From: Sipunculus nudus
Lineage: Eukaryota; Annelida; Sipuncula; Golfingiida; Sipunculidae
Length of the DNA stretch: 64,000 nucleotides
NCBI GenBank assembly: GCA_026874595.1
Contig: CM049307.1
Location: 56,625,870-56,689,869, forward strand
Reading direction: 5' to 3'
Shown here: positions 26,582 through 50,522 of the stretch, in pieces
Layout: the number at the start of each line of letters is the position of its first letter
Position numbering within the stretch: the first letter of the stretch is position 1
Notes under the pieces: generated by a model
The model's database searches: none
Seen by the model: the letters and a program-made list of their open reading frames with translations, nothing else
What the model was told of the DNA's origin: nothing
Made by a program: the position numbers and the translations under genes

Positions 26582-27229
26582 CTAGACTGTGATCCTGTGA
26601 CCTAACCTGTGCATGTAATCTAGACCTTAAGCAGGGAAGCATTTGTTCAGTAGCGTGAAAAATTTGCGTCCAATGTTGGTGGCTACGTTGTCACTGAATG
26701 GTGGGTTAAATCAGGTTATGTTTCTTCGTATGTTGCGTCTCTCCCTCCACTGGTATGGTCCTCGACGGAGTTGGGGAGGGGGCTTGTATTACAGCGTGTA
26801 TTCCAGCTTGTATTTCAGCTTTTCTTAGTATACAGGCGCTGCTTTCTTGAAAATAATTTCGTTTGGTCAGATGTTGGAAAGCCTGTTGTTTATGCCTATT
26901 GGTTTGTTTTTCAATATGGTTGGCGGATGGTTGCTGTCCCTGTGCTAGTACAGGGGCGTGTTATTTGGCTTTAAAATGGCTTGCATGTGCCTATTCTAGA
27001 GTCTAAAGTTATGTCCAGGTATTAAACTGTTTTTTTTTTGTTTGCTTCTATTGTAATTCTTAGAGTGTTCTATGCAAATATTTTAAATAAATCCTTTTTG
27101 ATGATTTCCGCTTGTCTTGGTGTTTTCGGCAAATGGCTAGCCAATCATCCCTGTACAGTCCGACGTTGATGTCCATGTGCTGCAGCTGTAAAAGTAGGAA
27201 CAGTCAAATTAATTTCCAAGTTCTGGCGC

Positions 27230-28181
27230 CGTCATAGCTGCCTATTGTGACGTCAAAGCTGGGATTGTTGCGTTTGCATCATGGGGTATCATCGTTGTAT
27301 AGGATGGCACTTTTTGCGTGGCGATTGATGTGCTTTCATTTTCAGAAATGACGTCATACTATGATGCGAAAGCAAAGGCTTTGTCTGGCAGGTCTTCGGT
27401 GATTGACGGGTAAAAGTCACATATATCGAAACAGATGAATAATTGTTTGCTCTCGTTTCCTACTTCATTAAACCAAGATATAATTTGGTAGGTGTTTTTC
27501 CATTTGTTGAATTTCGTAGCTTGTTTAATGTTTGAGTTGATTCTAACCAGTATCTGCTGGCTAATTTTGCCAATTTCGGGTTTGCACGGGTTTATCAGTC
27601 TGCAGCTTGGTTTATTGCTAAAGTTTGGTTTATGGTCTTTGAGTGTGATGAAGGCCTGACTTTTATTCGTGTTTTTTCTGTCACTGACGTGAAGTTGTGT
27701 TGCAATCTTTTGGTCATCTAAAGTAATCCGGTTCACCGATGCCAGTGAGTCTTCTTATAATCCTTTTTCGATATTCCTTTTTATAATATCATTGTATTGC
27801 TCTGGCTCTAGCTTATAGAAGTTATTAGTTTTGTCTACCAGTAATTTTTCTTCTTTTTAATGAGTTGAGCGTCCCGGCGAAGTTGCTTCTGGAAAGGCTT
27901 GTTGCTACTCTTGAATTTGATATTTTTAACAATGTTCAAACGTCAATCTTTGAATTCTTTTAGCTCCGGTGTTTGCGGTCGTGTTTAGCAGAGCGGAATC
28001 CATTAGTCTCTTTTTGTTCGCTTTGCCGCCAGGGTTCAGGAGGAAGTGAGATCTCCATCTGATATTTCTTATAAATTTGTGCGTTATTTTCAATCAAACA
28101 TTTCACGTATCCCTTGATGTTGGTATTGGTATATCCCTAGGAGAATACCCGAGGTCGATGTAGTCAAGTCATTGATCCATG
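27230..28181 (-). pseudogene. Penelope-like N-terminal region and reverse transcriptase, broken
   Basis: The family's RT copies element RNA into the genome. Translation of the minus strand gives DYIDLGYSPRDIP near 28,160 and LLVDKTNNFYKLEPEQY near 27,830. It then gives ITLKDHKPNF, CRLINPCKPEIGKISQ and FDICDFYPSI (27,359-27,736), and finally FDVTIGSYDGA near 27,240. These parallel the corresponding blocks of copy 2. An in-frame TAA lies at 27,755-27,757. A frameshift follows near 27,330, and a stop replaces a Trp-like position near 27,275. The catalytic YxDD region is not recognisable. It continues, with LRITIEA and YLDITLD words near 27,030 and TNIGRKFFTLL near 26,650, to 26,634. It cannot encode an active enzyme. 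Confidence 0.75.
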
Positions 28182-28301
28182 GTAGTTCAGAGAGTGCTCA
28201 ACAAAAGGCTGGAGCAAGATTATAGTGTTTGTTAAAACTACACAACGATTAAGTGCTCAACTGACAGGAGCTGTAATATATTTTAAGTTCAAGATTTTAA
28301 C

Positions 28302-46694: not shown

Positions 46695-46880
46695 TAACTC
46701 TGAAGAAAAACAACACTGTAAATTCACTACAGTCTGTTTCACGGGATGCGACCCGATCATCAGGTGAATGTTGTTAGAATGAAGCTAACGGCGTGGTTTG
46801 AAAAGCCGAGACTTTACGAGATTACGAGATTATGATTTGTGCGTATTGGGGGGTACATTTAATGACTGACACTGATCCTA
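46695..46880 (-). repeat. Downstream terminal direct repeat (pseudo-LTR)
   Basis: This 186-bp repeat starts TAACTCTGAAG and ends CACTGATCCTA. It aligns without gaps to 50,235-50,420 with about ten differences by eye (about 95% identity). It contains the better-preserved hammerhead ribozyme. Confidence 0.93.
46709..46775 (-). ncRNA. Type I hammerhead ribozyme (downstream copy)
   Basis: Reading the minus strand from 46,775: AACAACATTCAC, the core CTGATGA (46,757-46,763), a stem II hairpin CGGG-tcgcat-CCCG, and the core GAAA (46,737-46,740). Next come a short stem III (ACA-gac-TGT) and the cleavage triplet GTA. Helix I closes with GTGAAT, a bulge of about seven bases and GTTGTT, pairing perfectly with ATTCAC and AACAAC. 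The predicted cut is between 46,728 and 46,727. One atypical point is that the pair next to CTGATGA and GAAA in stem II is U-U. Such ribozymes process RNA of Penelope-like elements and retrozymes. Confidence 0.85.
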
Positions 46881-47207
46881 TTGTCCTCGGGGGCACAATA
46901 GGATTGGGCGGGGTACACGTGCGATACTGGAACATAACAGGGCACAGAGGTTTATTGTGGTTTTAATGTTTATAATTAATACAAAGATATTTTAGCAGGA
47001 AGCCCATTAGCAAGTAAGCTGATATTTAATAGGGTCCTGGGTAGAGTAACATTTCAGTAGTATACACATATGATATAAATATATAATACACATATACTAT
47101 GAAAATATACAATTCAAAAGGCAAATATACAATATAAAAAAAATTTAAAAGCCAAATGTACTATACTCGTACGAAGTGGCGCAGGTCTCCTAGCTGAAGG
47201 TCGTAAG

Positions 47208-47847
47208 GGCCCCATCACACTAGATGAAGACCTTACGGCGACCACAGCGACCTAGTAGATCGCCGTTGGTCGCCCTCAACATCGGAAAACCCCTCCTAGT
47301 ATAACTGCAATGCCGCTCTCGCCTCGCTGACACGACCTGTGCTGGCACTGCGAGCTTCGTCAGAGCGCTGACGCAAGCACACGTCGAATCCAACTGGACG
47401 CACAGAGCGCAGCATTGACGTCATAAGCGCAGCGGCGGCACCATGCGAAGCGTGTAAAGAGCTCACTAGGGTCACCAAGGTCTCGGTAGCGGCGGGGTAA
47501 GTGTGCTGAGCCAGTGCCCTGGAACGGGAAGGCCGATGCTACCCCGTTCACTGGTGCTCGACCTGTGCGGTCATGAAGCTGGTACTGAGCTGCTGGGACA
47601 CTGATGGCGATCGAATTCCGATCTGACTGCGCTTTTATTCCAAGGCGACCCCGCGGCGGAAATTTTGTCCATGTTGAAAACTGGTCGCCACTCATGGCGT
47701 TCATGGTGACCATATGACGACCCAAGGCGACACTATCTCACTCCAACGAAGCTAATGAAAACTTAAGGCCACTCAGGCTGCACTCTAAGGCGATCTGGCC
47801 CTATTCGGTGATCGCAGCGAGATCGCCTTCTCGTGTGACGGGGGTGT
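47208..47847. mobile_element. MITE nested in the Penelope-like element
   Basis: The left end GGCCCCATCACACTAGATGA and the reverse complement of the right end ACACCCCCGTCACACGAGAA share CCCCRTCACACKAGA. A possible 4-bp target duplication TAAG flanks it (47,204-47,207 and 47,848-47,851). The 640-bp interior is GC-rich, with repeated GGCGACC and TCGCC words. It interrupts the 3' region of the retroelement, so it inserted later. Frames of 60-121 codons across it are not genes. Confidence 0.7.
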
Positions 47848-47974
47848 TAAGCTCCTTAGACCAGGATAAAGTAGGACTTTCAAGTCATCCAATGGACTCC
47901 ACGAGTCAGCAGTGAGAGAGCAACTACCTGAACAGATGAGTCTGCCCAGCGGGTCCTCGTGGTGGTGGTGGTGC

Positions 47975-47989
47975 GGGGGGGGGGGGGGG
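47975..47989. repeat. G15 homopolymer in the element's 3' region
   Basis: This run of 15 G follows a (GGT)n-like stretch and is followed by T and seven more G. Confidence 0.95.
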
Positions 47990-48028
47990 TGGGGGGGATT
48001 AGCGGGCATGTAGAAATTAGTATGAATG

Positions 48029-48990
48029 CTAGGTTTTAAAACATTTCAGAGTGAATTTGTTTTGGTGGCGGCACTTGGACAGAATTTCAGCTCTTGAGTT
48101 CAACAATGATCCGGGGGGGGGGGGGGGATCACACTTTCTGGTCCCACAGAAGTAAGGTTCTGCCGTTGCAGAGATTTCCCAGGAGAGCTTGTAATTGATA
48201 TTGATGTCTTTAAGTGTCCAGATGTGTTTAGACAATTCAGTGTTTTTAGCGTGGGATCTGTTACGAAGGGATTGTTTGTGGTTATTGTATCTGGTCTTAA
48301 AACCACCTTCAGTACACCCTATGTAGTGTTTCTCGTCATTGTCTGTACTAACGGTTGCCTTATAGACAATGCATCTCAGCTGACCATTCATAGGACATTC
48401 ATCCTTTTTACGGCAGCTACATTGTTTTTGAGGTACATTCACCGCTTTGTTGGTATTTAGAACCTTCATATTGTGTTTGCTGATCAGGTTAGACATGTTG
48501 GGTAGACAGCTGTAGCTAATTTTCAAATTGTTCCTGTTGAATAGCCTGTGGTTCCTTTGATGTTTTCGGAAGTGTTTTTCAACCAGTTTCATGAATTGTC
48601 TGCCAATGTTGGTTTTTACATGACGGCTGTAGGGGGGATTGAACCATATTATTTTCCTTTTCCTGTTTCTTTTGCTTTTCACTGTGGGTTCAACATATTG
48701 TAAGCTTTCTGAGAACCCGCTTTTCGCTAAAGCTTTGTCATACACGGGTTTGGCTTTCAAAAATAGCTCTTCATTGCAGGAGGTGTCAGATACACGCTTG
48801 CTGATCATCATAGGTATCTGCCTGATAATAGCTGGAGGGTGATTGGATTGTGCGTGGATATAGAGCGGGTCATGGTTCGGTTTTCTGTAAGGGTAGAAAA
48901 TGTCATTTTGGAGGTCAAATGTCACGTCTAAGAAATCTGTGCAGGTCAGATTAGTTTCAATGGTTATTTTTTACCCAACATTGGAAAAGA
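48029..48990 (-). pseudogene. Penelope-like linker and GIY-YIG endonuclease half of the polyprotein
   Basis: The GIY-YIG domain nicks target DNA for integration. From its 298-codon open part (48,029-48,925), the protein has an IIWFNPPYS motif at residues 92-100 and a basic linker. A CxC-x5-C-x7-C zinc-binding-like block lies at residues 169-185. The nuclease core has YKAT at 188-191, YIG at 201-203, an Arg in FKTRY (209-213) and a Glu in NTELSKH (228-234). The same frame extends upstream to a TAA at about 48,973 and overlaps the reverse transcriptase frame, so a +1 frameshift and this stop separate the two halves. After KCD (264-266) a G15 tract codes for PPPPP where family members, and copy 1 with its CNICLDEKFFI, have a conserved CxxC-type segment. 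The domain is probably inactive. Confidence 0.85.
48113..48127. repeat. G15 homopolymer interrupting the nuclease domain
   Basis: The run sits between GATCC and GATC, so the local sequence is a near-palindrome around the homopolymer. It replaces part of the conserved C-terminal nuclease segment. Confidence 0.95.
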
Positions 48991-49650
48991 GTTTGATCAT
49001 TTTTCTTACGGGTGCTGTCTGCTTTGGGTCCAGACATGTTTGGGAAACAACCTAAACCGTCATCTCGATACAGGCCTAGAGCATTTTCACCAAATTCCTT
49101 TTTCAACATATCTAGGATGTATAAACCAACAATTTCGCACACTTCAGCGCCATCAAAACTGCCCATGGTGACGTCAAAGCTAGTGTGATCTTTTTTCACC
49201 CAGGTGTTACCGTTGCTAAACAGTAATCTTTTCCTGCTGTGCAGGATGATTTTGATAACATCATCTGGAATGGAGACCATGGTTTTGGCAAATTTGAGGG
49301 CTTTCATGAGTAGATCTACTGTGATCGAGGGGTAAAAATCAACGATATCAAACTTTATGAACTTTGATTTTTGTTTCAGCTTCAATTTCTTGAACCAAGA
49401 TATTACCTGTGCGGTGTTTTGCCACTGGTTGAGTTTGGTTTTCAGTCTCAGTTGGCTATTAATTTTTTCCAAGTGCTTTTTGCTAATGATACCTATTACA
49501 GATTTTGCTGGATTTATCAGTCTGCACTTGGGGTTTTGTTCAAAATTATCCTTGTGGTCTTCCGAAGTAATGTTAGCATTACGCTCCGCCATGACTTCGA
49601 TTCGGTCTGCTAGGTTAAGGGAACCGGCTATTTCTTTGGCGTCTGTATTG
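48957..49650 (-). pseudogene. Penelope-like reverse transcriptase domain
   Basis: This domain copies the element's RNA. The 211-codon open part (48,957-49,592) contains CRLINPAK at residues 23-30 and FDIVDFYPS at 81-89 (the first catalytic Asp). It continues with TMGSFDGAEVCEIVG at 142-156 and YRDDG at 175-179 (the catalytic Asp pair). This is the layout expected of Penelope-type RTs. Upstream coding continues in the same frame (NLADRIEV just before residue 1). It is separated from the N-terminal part by a frameshift near 49,655. At the downstream end an extra A in an A-run (near 49,000) shifts the frame before the stop. The catalytic residues are intact, so decay is recent or partly a sequencing matter. 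Confidence 0.85.
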
Positions 49651-50110
49651 ATATTTTACAGATATTTTTGTCTGCCTTTTTGTATGTCTTAGTGATGTTG
49701 TCTGTTAGGAGTTTATTGTAGTATTCTTTCGGTATACTGTACAGGTTGGTGGTCTTATCTGCCTGTACTAGGGGATTGTCAGATTGTCTTGATGTCATTG
49801 GCCATTTGTCTCTGGAATCCATTGTGTGAGTGCTGGAATTCAATGTTCCGGACCATTTCGTAGATATCGCTTTCAAATGCCCTGAGGTGTTCGCTATGAG
49901 GGGGTGAATACGTGGTTTTGAATCCATAGTTTTGTTTAGCTTAAGTTTGACCAGGGTTTTCGTTATGGAATGCCTTCCATCGCATTCTCCAGAGTAGGCT
50001 TTCAACTTTACTTATTAGGGATTTGGTGTAGGACATTACTATGGATGGGAATGTTTTTCAAAGAATAGTCGAAGTTAGCTTTGTTCCTTCTGTAGATGTT
50101 ATAAGTTGAT
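49651..50110 (-). pseudogene. Penelope-like N-terminal region, frameshifted
   Basis: Two minus-strand frames together give the expected order. One frame reads ISKVESLLWRMRWKAFHNEN near 50,000, then FKTTYSPPHSEHL and FESDIYEMVRNIEFQHS. The other reads VQADKTTNLYSIPKEYYNKL near 49,750, then ITKTYKKADKN. The last motif precedes the reverse transcriptase in this family, and copy 1 has the equivalent LLVDKTNNFYKLEPEQY. At least two frameshifts and one stop are present. The region probably carries RNA-binding or structural roles in the family, but that is not established here. Confidence 0.7.
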
Positions 50111-50234
50111 TTTCTGGACAGGGTTGGTTAACAAAAGTGCTCGACAACGTACCTGTCGCTGAAGCTGGTGTAGAAGGTAGAGTTACCCTCCGTTGTAAAG
50201 TGCTCTATGGCCTACAGACTAGGCCAGAGCAGTA

Positions 50235-50420
50235 TAACTGTGAAGAAAAACAACACTGTAAATTTACTACAGTCTGTTTCACGGGATGCGACCCGATCAT
50301 CAGGTGAATGTTGTTAGAATGAAGCTAACGGCGTGGTATAAAAAGCCGAGACTATACGAGATTATGAGATTATGCTTTGTGCGTATTTGGGGGAACATTT
50401 AATGACTGACACTGATCCTA
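50235..50420 (-). repeat. Upstream terminal direct repeat (pseudo-LTR)
   Basis: This is a 186-bp partner of 46,695-46,880 in the same orientation, exactly 3,540 bp away and about 95% identical by eye. It lies upstream of the coding region on the minus strand and would contain or precede the element's promoter. Confidence 0.93.
50249..50315 (-). ncRNA. Type I hammerhead ribozyme (upstream copy)
   Basis: Its CTGATGA core, stem II, GAAA, stem III and GTA cleavage triplet are identical to those of the downstream copy. One difference falls in helix I: the distal strand reads GTAAAT instead of GTGAAT, producing a C-A mismatch with ATTCAC. The core is otherwise intact, so reduced but possible activity is inferred. 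Confidence 0.82.
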
Positions 50421-50464
50421 GTCTGTAGGCCATAGAGCACTTTACAACGGAGGGTAACTCTACC

Positions 50465-50467
<3 letters not shown>

Positions 50468-50522
<55 letters not shown>
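50468..50522. repeat. (TA)n microsatellite at the edge of Penelope-like copy 2
   Basis: This pure TA array of about 55 bp begins within a few bases of the outer inverted arm. Confidence 0.96.

Follow-up and report, generated by a model that had tools for sequence, protein, structure and literature searches.

Structure of the Element and Its Hammerhead Motifs

The stretch of DNA examined here is a window of 64,000 nucleotides (64 kb) of contig CM049307.1 from the sipunculan worm Sipunculus nudus, and it carries on its minus strand, from about 50420 to 46695, a broken Penelope-like element (PLE) that is dead as judged from its protein motifs, an inverted 53-nt piece, and AT-rich flanks. In minus-strand order, the element consists of an upstream pseudo-long terminal repeat (pseudo-LTR), pieces with reverse transcriptase (RT) motifs, a stretch with IVY, YIG, and TELSKHIW, a 3' untranslated region (UTR), a downstream pseudo-LTR, and a microsatellite (Table 1). 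The two pseudo-LTRs are direct repeats of 186 nt each, 95% identical and 3,540 apart, and with the inverted piece upstream they form the layout of a PLE. Each of them holds the letters of a minimal type I hammerhead ribozyme. This kind of element and this kind of motif are already known; what is new here is a test of the ends of genomic copies, which suggests that the RNA copied into DNA is not cut by the ribozyme.

Table 1. Features of the element and of its immediate surroundings (positions count from the first letter of the window).
Feature	Position	Strand	Remarks
Hammerhead motif, bounded by the 5' edge of helix I (46780) and predicted RT start site 1 (46695)	46695..46780	-	Predicted GTA cut between 46728 and 46727
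Second hammerhead motif, with a C-A mismatch in helix I	50235..50320	-	Predicted GTA cut between 50268 and 50267
Initiator-like TCATTC	46777..46782	-	Sampled copies most often begin at its A (46780)
GGTCGC, +28 to +33 relative to A 46780	46748..46753	-	In stem II and its loop; fits a downstream-promoter-element consensus
Alternative hairpin: GAAA, stem III, and cut site paired with tail (predicted)	46707..46740	-	z -2.5, 4/200 shuffles as good; excludes the hammerhead fold
Upstream pseudo-LTR (direct repeat)	50235..50420	-	Ends at 50420, where inverted sequence starts; upstream extent 117 nt
Downstream pseudo-LTR	46695..46880	-	Element end at 46695, adjoining the microsatellite; downstream extent 33 nt
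Inverted piece, head-to-head upstream junction	50417..50469	+	53 nt, 98% complementary to 50171-50223
(AT)n, upstream end, AT-rich target	50468..50522		Follows the inverted piece
RT start site 2 (predicted)	50171..50173	-	+97 past the cut; element position shared with the end of the inverted piece
Open piece, N-terminal part of the open reading frame (ORF)	49628..50011	-	Assigned by position; no family match
RT piece	48957..49655	-	Motifs FYPSI and YRDDG; RVT_1 E 0.0021, below the Pfam cut-off
C-terminal piece, GIY-YIG endonuclease-like	48029..48970	-	IVY/YIG and TELSKHIW; frame differs from that of RT; no family match above cut-off
Nested inverted-repeat DNA transposon in the 3' UTR	47207..47850		TTA target duplication; empty site in other copies

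The hammerhead core CTGATGATCGGGTCGCATCCCGTGAAA lies on the minus strand at 46763-46737 and 50303-50277. Both repeats carry CTGATGA, a 4-bp stem II, GAAA, CAGACUG, GTA, and a helix I partner, so that the CUGAUGA...GAAA core, stem II, helix I, and an NUH cleavage site of a minimal type I hammerhead are all present. A sequence-only reading of this DNA had described co-oriented hammerheads in the two repeats, with a U-U pair at the base of stem II, a full helix I in the downstream copy, and a C-A mismatch in that of the upstream copy, and each of these features was found again. In the 46.7-kb copy, the part of helix I next to the core is paired at 6/6 positions (P 0.0018, 20,000 single-base shuffles of the 3' side), whereas in the 50.3-kb copy, which is the upstream one in the minus-strand transcript, pairing halts after 2 pairs at a C-A mismatch in the third (P 0.08, same shuffle test). 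Beyond the six core-proximal pairs, helix I also has a distal arm. The 3-bp stem III proposed in that reading exists as letters but not as a stable helix, its predicted energy being 0.0 kcal/mol when taken alone, and helix III is accordingly very short or absent. The quasi-palindromic CAGACUG is predicted to pair with a second copy of itself, and could do so in a dimer.

The covariance check that had been proposed gave no support: Rfam returned no match of any family at gathering level across the window, and no hammerhead family at E<=10 in 501-nt stretches around both copies, in a search uncalibrated on a known PLE hammerhead. In the 64 kb, a hand-written hammerhead descriptor matched only the 46.7-kb copy (the 50.3-kb copy fails on helix I), and 20 single-base shuffles of the window gave one site in total. 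Judged by letters alone, such a motif would seldom arise by chance, though it could; what convinces is that it lies in a PLE pseudo-LTR.

The Genomic Family

The PLE family is abundant in the 1.43-Gb genome. The pattern CTGATGAN{8,24}GAAACAGACTGTA has 311 matches genome-wide and its reversed control 0, and the 25-base pattern GAAACAGACTGTNGTGAATTNACAG, with two open positions, has 1,408, its reversed form again 0. Two subfamilies, GTA and GTT, can be distinguished, both of which obey the NUH rule for hammerhead cleavage; GTT is the commoner among the matches listed, where the base before the cut is T in 83, A in 16, and C in 1 (100 of 1,408).

Several clustered copies were also seen. A three-copy array at 30.99 Mb of contig C9 was considered as a PLE tandem and rejected, as it is really a 4.16-kb duplication with one pseudo-LTR per unit. 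This locus (L039, G000:C9:30992000-31001999), in which the two units compared are 99.5% alike, multiplies the hammerhead without transposition; it matches the window only at the pseudo-LTR, simple repeats aside, and was not used as a reference. Hammerheads stand in close tandem at L087 and L085, 56 and 81 nt apart; each time the helix I edge begins the next unit, which in one case comes directly after the cut region (GTAGTG followed by ATTCTGAC).

Where Genomic Copies Start and End

Had double cutting produced the RNA that was inserted, the cut would be expected to coincide with one end of the copies. The ends were read in the 100 copies listed first among the 311 pattern copies, on contigs C1-C5, by extending the alignment on both sides with the window element as reference; the count includes the two copies of the window itself, which also served as that reference. 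In all, 106 copies were analysed. The other six, on other contigs and found by whole-repeat similarity, were left out of the count; five of them end at +32 to +35 and one at +97, and their upstream extent is 113-451 nt.

None of the 100 copies has its 3' end exactly at the ribozyme cut. Instead, 53 end 31-36 nt past it and 24 end at 94-98, so that 77/100 stop at one of two predicted RT start sites, and in most copies of these two classes (AT)n comes next. An optional 3' tail with fixed ends and an AT-rich target is what a PLE would be expected to have. The remaining 3' ends lie at 82-93 (5 copies), 11-30 (13), 1-10 (3), and 37-81 (1), with one internal end in the window's upstream copy. Copies including L058 and L137 end at ~+16 to +27 inside the tail, several of them before AT repeats, possibly through minor RT start sites or trimming.

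The 5' ends cluster as well. They lie 15-20 nt before CTGATGA in 42 of the 100 copies (exactly at 17 in 22), nearer the core in 24, and beyond in 34, and the cluster coincides with the outer edge of helix I. An edge at 13-20 nt is found in 46 copies: inverted element adjoins it head-to-head in 27 and same-strand element in 3, and in the other 16 the preceding 220 nt contain no element sequence. The flanks of 13 of these 16 are unlike any other edge flank, and the remaining three each resemble one other. Accordingly, the helix I edge is a terminus and does not mark the border of a different repeat common to the copies. In a limited literature search, with the primary PLE-hammerhead and Terminon papers outside its scope, no 5' footprint at the helix I edge was found in print.

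Two further samples were chosen by patterns outside the ribozyme. In test A, the pattern lay ~26-59 nt past the cut and occurred at 388 places; 20 copies were taken from 100 listed, about every fifth, with two picks exchanged for loci not yet covered. Seven stop at the helix I edge, 6 run beyond it, 5 stop inside the tail and 2 inside the ribozyme, and 0/20 start within 2 nt of the cut. In test B, the pattern lay upstream of the core, all of its 92 places were listed, 20 of them on C1-C6 that were not yet covered were taken, and the ends were judged by eye. All 20 run past the cut and none ends at it. AT-rich DNA follows 17 of them, which end at ~+20 to +37, whereas L135 goes on into the element and L150 leaves it at ~+12. 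Two of these copies, L144 and L145, look like one duplicated insertion.

Since no copy ends exactly at the cut in the main sample (0/100) or in test B (0/20), and none starts there in test A (0/20), the sampled insertions would not have been made by double-cleavage release of a monomer. The earlier suggestion that two cuts free a monomer that may then circularise thus finds no support in the genomic record.

Two motifs found at the 5' edge (Table 1) are taken by us to be an initiator-like TCATTC and a downstream-promoter match, GGTCGC. Of the 128,000 positions of the window, 11 carry TCAKTY together with the six-base downstream element so spaced.

An Alternative Fold of the Cut Site

Folding of ten copies, which represent seven distinct sequences, gave best structures of -14.9 to -20.9 kcal/mol in which the cut region is paired with the tail, in 8/10 via one long hairpin from GAAA. 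When constrained to the hammerhead, the same copies reach only -2.8 to -11.6 kcal/mol, and the folds that hide the cut are thus predicted to be better by 7.6-14.3 kcal/mol. The fold of the whole motif has a z of -1.6, with 11/200 shuffles as good.

Variation among copies bears on both structures. Among the 100 matches listed, the base before the cut and the base at +8 are T-A in 54, T-T in 28, A-T in 16, C-A in 1, and T-G in 1; A-A occurs in 10/1,408. Among 109 distinct copies, mostly of the GTA subfamily, double changes within the hairpin are confined to this pair (5 copies), and none was seen in proximal helix I, stem II, or stem III, so that the compensatory change in helix I that the sequence-only reading had looked to is missing from the proximal pairs of these copies. 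Distal helix I is paired in 89-102/109 copies, with one pair broken (C-U) in 12/109 and likewise in the folded GTT copies. The double changes are suggestive of a hairpin that may have been kept; however, two inherited changes would suffice to produce them, and the unpaired T-T state is common. Core sites decay at about the same rate as others (6/216 versus 16/396 in 18 test-B copies, two being omitted for indels), and no clear extra conservation of the core was seen in the test-B copies. Therefore, this decay gives no evidence of selection for cleavage.

Proposed Mechanism and Its Alternatives

We put at about two in three the probability that the window holds a dead copy of an abundant PLE whose pseudo-LTRs carry a minimal type I hammerhead and whose RNA, running from the helix I edge, was copied into DNA uncut. 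The outer helix I edge (46780 or 50320) is the most likely start of the element RNA, in which case the ribozyme would form the extreme 5' end of the RNA and recur near its 3' end in the downstream repeat. The element protein would nick AT-rich DNA, and reverse transcription would start at fixed internal sites ~33 and ~97 nt past the cut and copy uncut RNA to its 5' end. A start in the downstream repeat would yield long copies, and a start in the upstream repeat would yield hammerhead-only inserts of ~86 or ~150 nt as run-off copies; the head-to-head pairs would arise when two such products are joined at their 5' ends. The hairpin probably sequesters the cut site in free RNA. If cleavage occurs, it would depend on protein or on a partner ribozyme, and the RNAs affected would not be those inserted. 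This reading is favoured partly because the 3' ends match the pattern of another family, PAc, in which there are two start sites and genomic ends fall on them.

Several observations weigh against this uncut-RNA reading. Of the 100 copies, 34 extend beyond the helix I edge, 13/100 end at +11 to +30, and 3/100 diverge from the reference 2-6 nt past the cut, although one of these rejoins the element and one is a close hammerhead tandem. In test A, the tail contains the start of 5/20 copies, the nearest being L129, which lies next to AT repeats and breaks off 6 nt past the cut; the test-B copy L151 is missing ~nine bases immediately past the cut and goes on after them. The search for promoter motifs followed the mapping of the edge, the folding program works without hammerhead tertiary contacts, and the family status of the element proteins is read from motifs. 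Furthermore, the 5' edge could be a stop of reverse transcription, and the ends of one family's old copies need not show how active copies behave.

The RT stop deserves to be weighed in its own right, namely that the 5' cluster marks the border of a folded 5' domain where RT stops or switches template, and not the start of transcription. The 27/46 edge copies that abut an inverted element are what template switching or self-priming would give, and self-priming on antisense RNA has been proposed for such palindromic junctions (PMC3846280, in its accessible text). However, RT would reach the edge only after passing the helix, 16/46 edge copies have flanks without element sequence, and the commonest edge base fits an initiator, so that we regard this explanation as unlikely. 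A slightly better case, though still a doubtful one, can be made for the hammerhead letters being kept mainly as promoter DNA or as a hairpin recognised by RT, with self-cleavage weak or irrelevant in the family. Two of the three common states at the base before the cut and +8 (T-A and A-T, not T-T) keep the hairpin pair, the double changes fall only there, and the core decays roughly as other sites do. Against this stand the chance that the haplotypes are two inherited changes, the common unpaired T-T state, a core that is intact in many test-B copies (and, as the pattern demands it, in all 311 pattern copies), and the fact that the PAc hammerhead does cut in vitro (PMC11167929).

That both ribozymes cut the transcript and that the released monomer, circularised by a ligase, serves as the transposition template appears very unlikely, even though animal retrozymes are reported, in the accessible text of PMC7229834, to work through a circular template. 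A re-ligated circle reads across the cut and could thus explain the 3' ends beyond it, but it has no end at the helix I edge and could not explain the 5' cluster there; in addition, stem III does not form alone, and the fold that hides the cut is predicted to be favoured. As for mere chance resemblance of the repeat to a hammerhead, the Rfam negatives and the single descriptor match in 20 shuffled windows speak for it, but the motif occupies the exact place expected for PLE hammerheads, is present in both pseudo-LTRs, and combines a 6-bp helix I and a distal arm with a very short helix III, which leaves this explanation scarcely credible.

The uncut-RNA reading can be extended to a hammerhead that acts as a dual DNA and RNA device, a proposal that we consider improbable as a whole. 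As DNA, the helix I edge and stem II would serve as the initiator and the downstream element of a promoter. As RNA, the same letters would form a 5'-terminal domain that switches between a cut-blocking hairpin, with an RT start beside it, and a self-cutting hammerhead. Uncut RNA would then be the genomic template, and cutting would remove the capped 5' end of other RNAs, choosing between template and other fates.

Other Features of the Window

The RT and IVY...YIG motifs of the element sit in adjacent, different frames. Protein family searches of its open pieces gave no endonuclease model match above cut-off, protein family and PDB searches of the element proteins were weak or uninformative, and a single-sequence structure model of the element protein was unusable (pLDDT 34). 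Long G runs occur at 48113-48125 and 47975-47989, in or near the end of the endonuclease-like frame, and C runs are also present in the pseudo-LTR copies L074, L088, and L096.

The nested transposon of ~640 bp, PIF/Harbinger-like by its features, has the imperfect inverted ends CCCCGTCACAC and CCCCATCACAC inside its TTA target duplication, and the fetched loci contain 14 empty-site matches without it (~10 different places). As it lies within the 3,540 spacing, this distance is not the unit length of the PLE family. A second decayed Penelope-like fragment lies on the minus strand at 26620-28300, where an RT piece (27362-27754) is 50% identical to that of the element over 122 residues; the hammerhead descriptor had no match in this fragment.

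Comparison With Known Systems

PLE hammerheads in pseudo-LTRs have been described as minimal variants without helix III that may cut as dimers and are credited to Cervera and de la Pena 2014 and Lunse 2017 (cited in PMC7761336 and PMC6155905, in the accessible text of both). The present motif resembles them in its pseudo-LTR place, conserved core, and near lack of helix III, with a possible CAGACUG pairing in a dimer; its U-U pair at the base of stem II may be a difference. The assignment to minimal hammerheads in PLE direct repeats thus stands on letters, context, and literature (the accessible text of PMC6155905 and PMC7761336; PMC11167929). End-footprint data for minimal PLE hammerheads were not found in the literature examined.

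Animal retrozymes likewise have type I hammerheads in short dispersed copies. As far as the accessible text of PMC7229834 goes, however, they are small tandem non-coding repeats with RNAs of ~170-400 nt, whereas the present family is an RT-coding element with mostly single short inserts; it is not a non-coding unit bounded by two ribozyme cuts, as RT motifs are present and the copy ends lie off the cuts. Pen2a_Av of Adineta vaga shares the arrangement of two direct pseudo-LTRs with an inverted one upstream, and the accessible text of that paper (PMC3846280) describes a 31-bp tail and, in Adineta families, palindromes at head-to-head junctions, explained by self-priming on antisense RNA; the word hammerhead is absent from that text.

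Ribozymes like that of hepatitis delta virus (HDV) cut at their own 5' end. In the L1Tc element of trypanosomatids, the 5'-terminal stretch, Pr77 or L1TcRz, is both a promoter with a downstream element and a ribozyme fold (PMC4748587, accessible text). L1TcRz differs from the present case in being HDV-like and in belonging to another class of retroelement, and both activities have been shown for it (PMC4748587, accessible text), whereas here they are predicted. The promoter overlap, if true, would thus be a parallel to L1Tc with an unrelated ribozyme.

There is also a close likeness to PAc, the Poseidon of Anolis carolinensis, in which reverse transcription proceeds from two internal sites past the hammerhead, genomic insertion ends coincide with both, and the target is AT-rich (PMC11167929). 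As in PAc, two RT start sites, here predicted, bound the tail past the ribozyme. The PAc RNA is used uncut in vitro, hammerhead catalytic mutants insert normally, and the ribozyme cuts only with protein (PMC11167929); uncut RNA would likewise be used in S. nudus. The two families differ in that the PAc ORF starts inside the ribozyme, whereas the corresponding ATG frame here stops after 31 codons, and in that the PAc main text describes no fixed 5' end at the edge of helix I (PMC11167929). The in vivo role of minimal PLE hammerheads has been called "still a mystery" (PMC7761336, accessible text). Genomic copies are a record of the RNAs that were inserted, and by this record those RNAs were unbroken across the ribozyme and in many cases started at its outer edge. 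Overall, this footprint fits the in vitro result obtained with PAc, in another family, and provides exact positions for the mapping of RNA ends.

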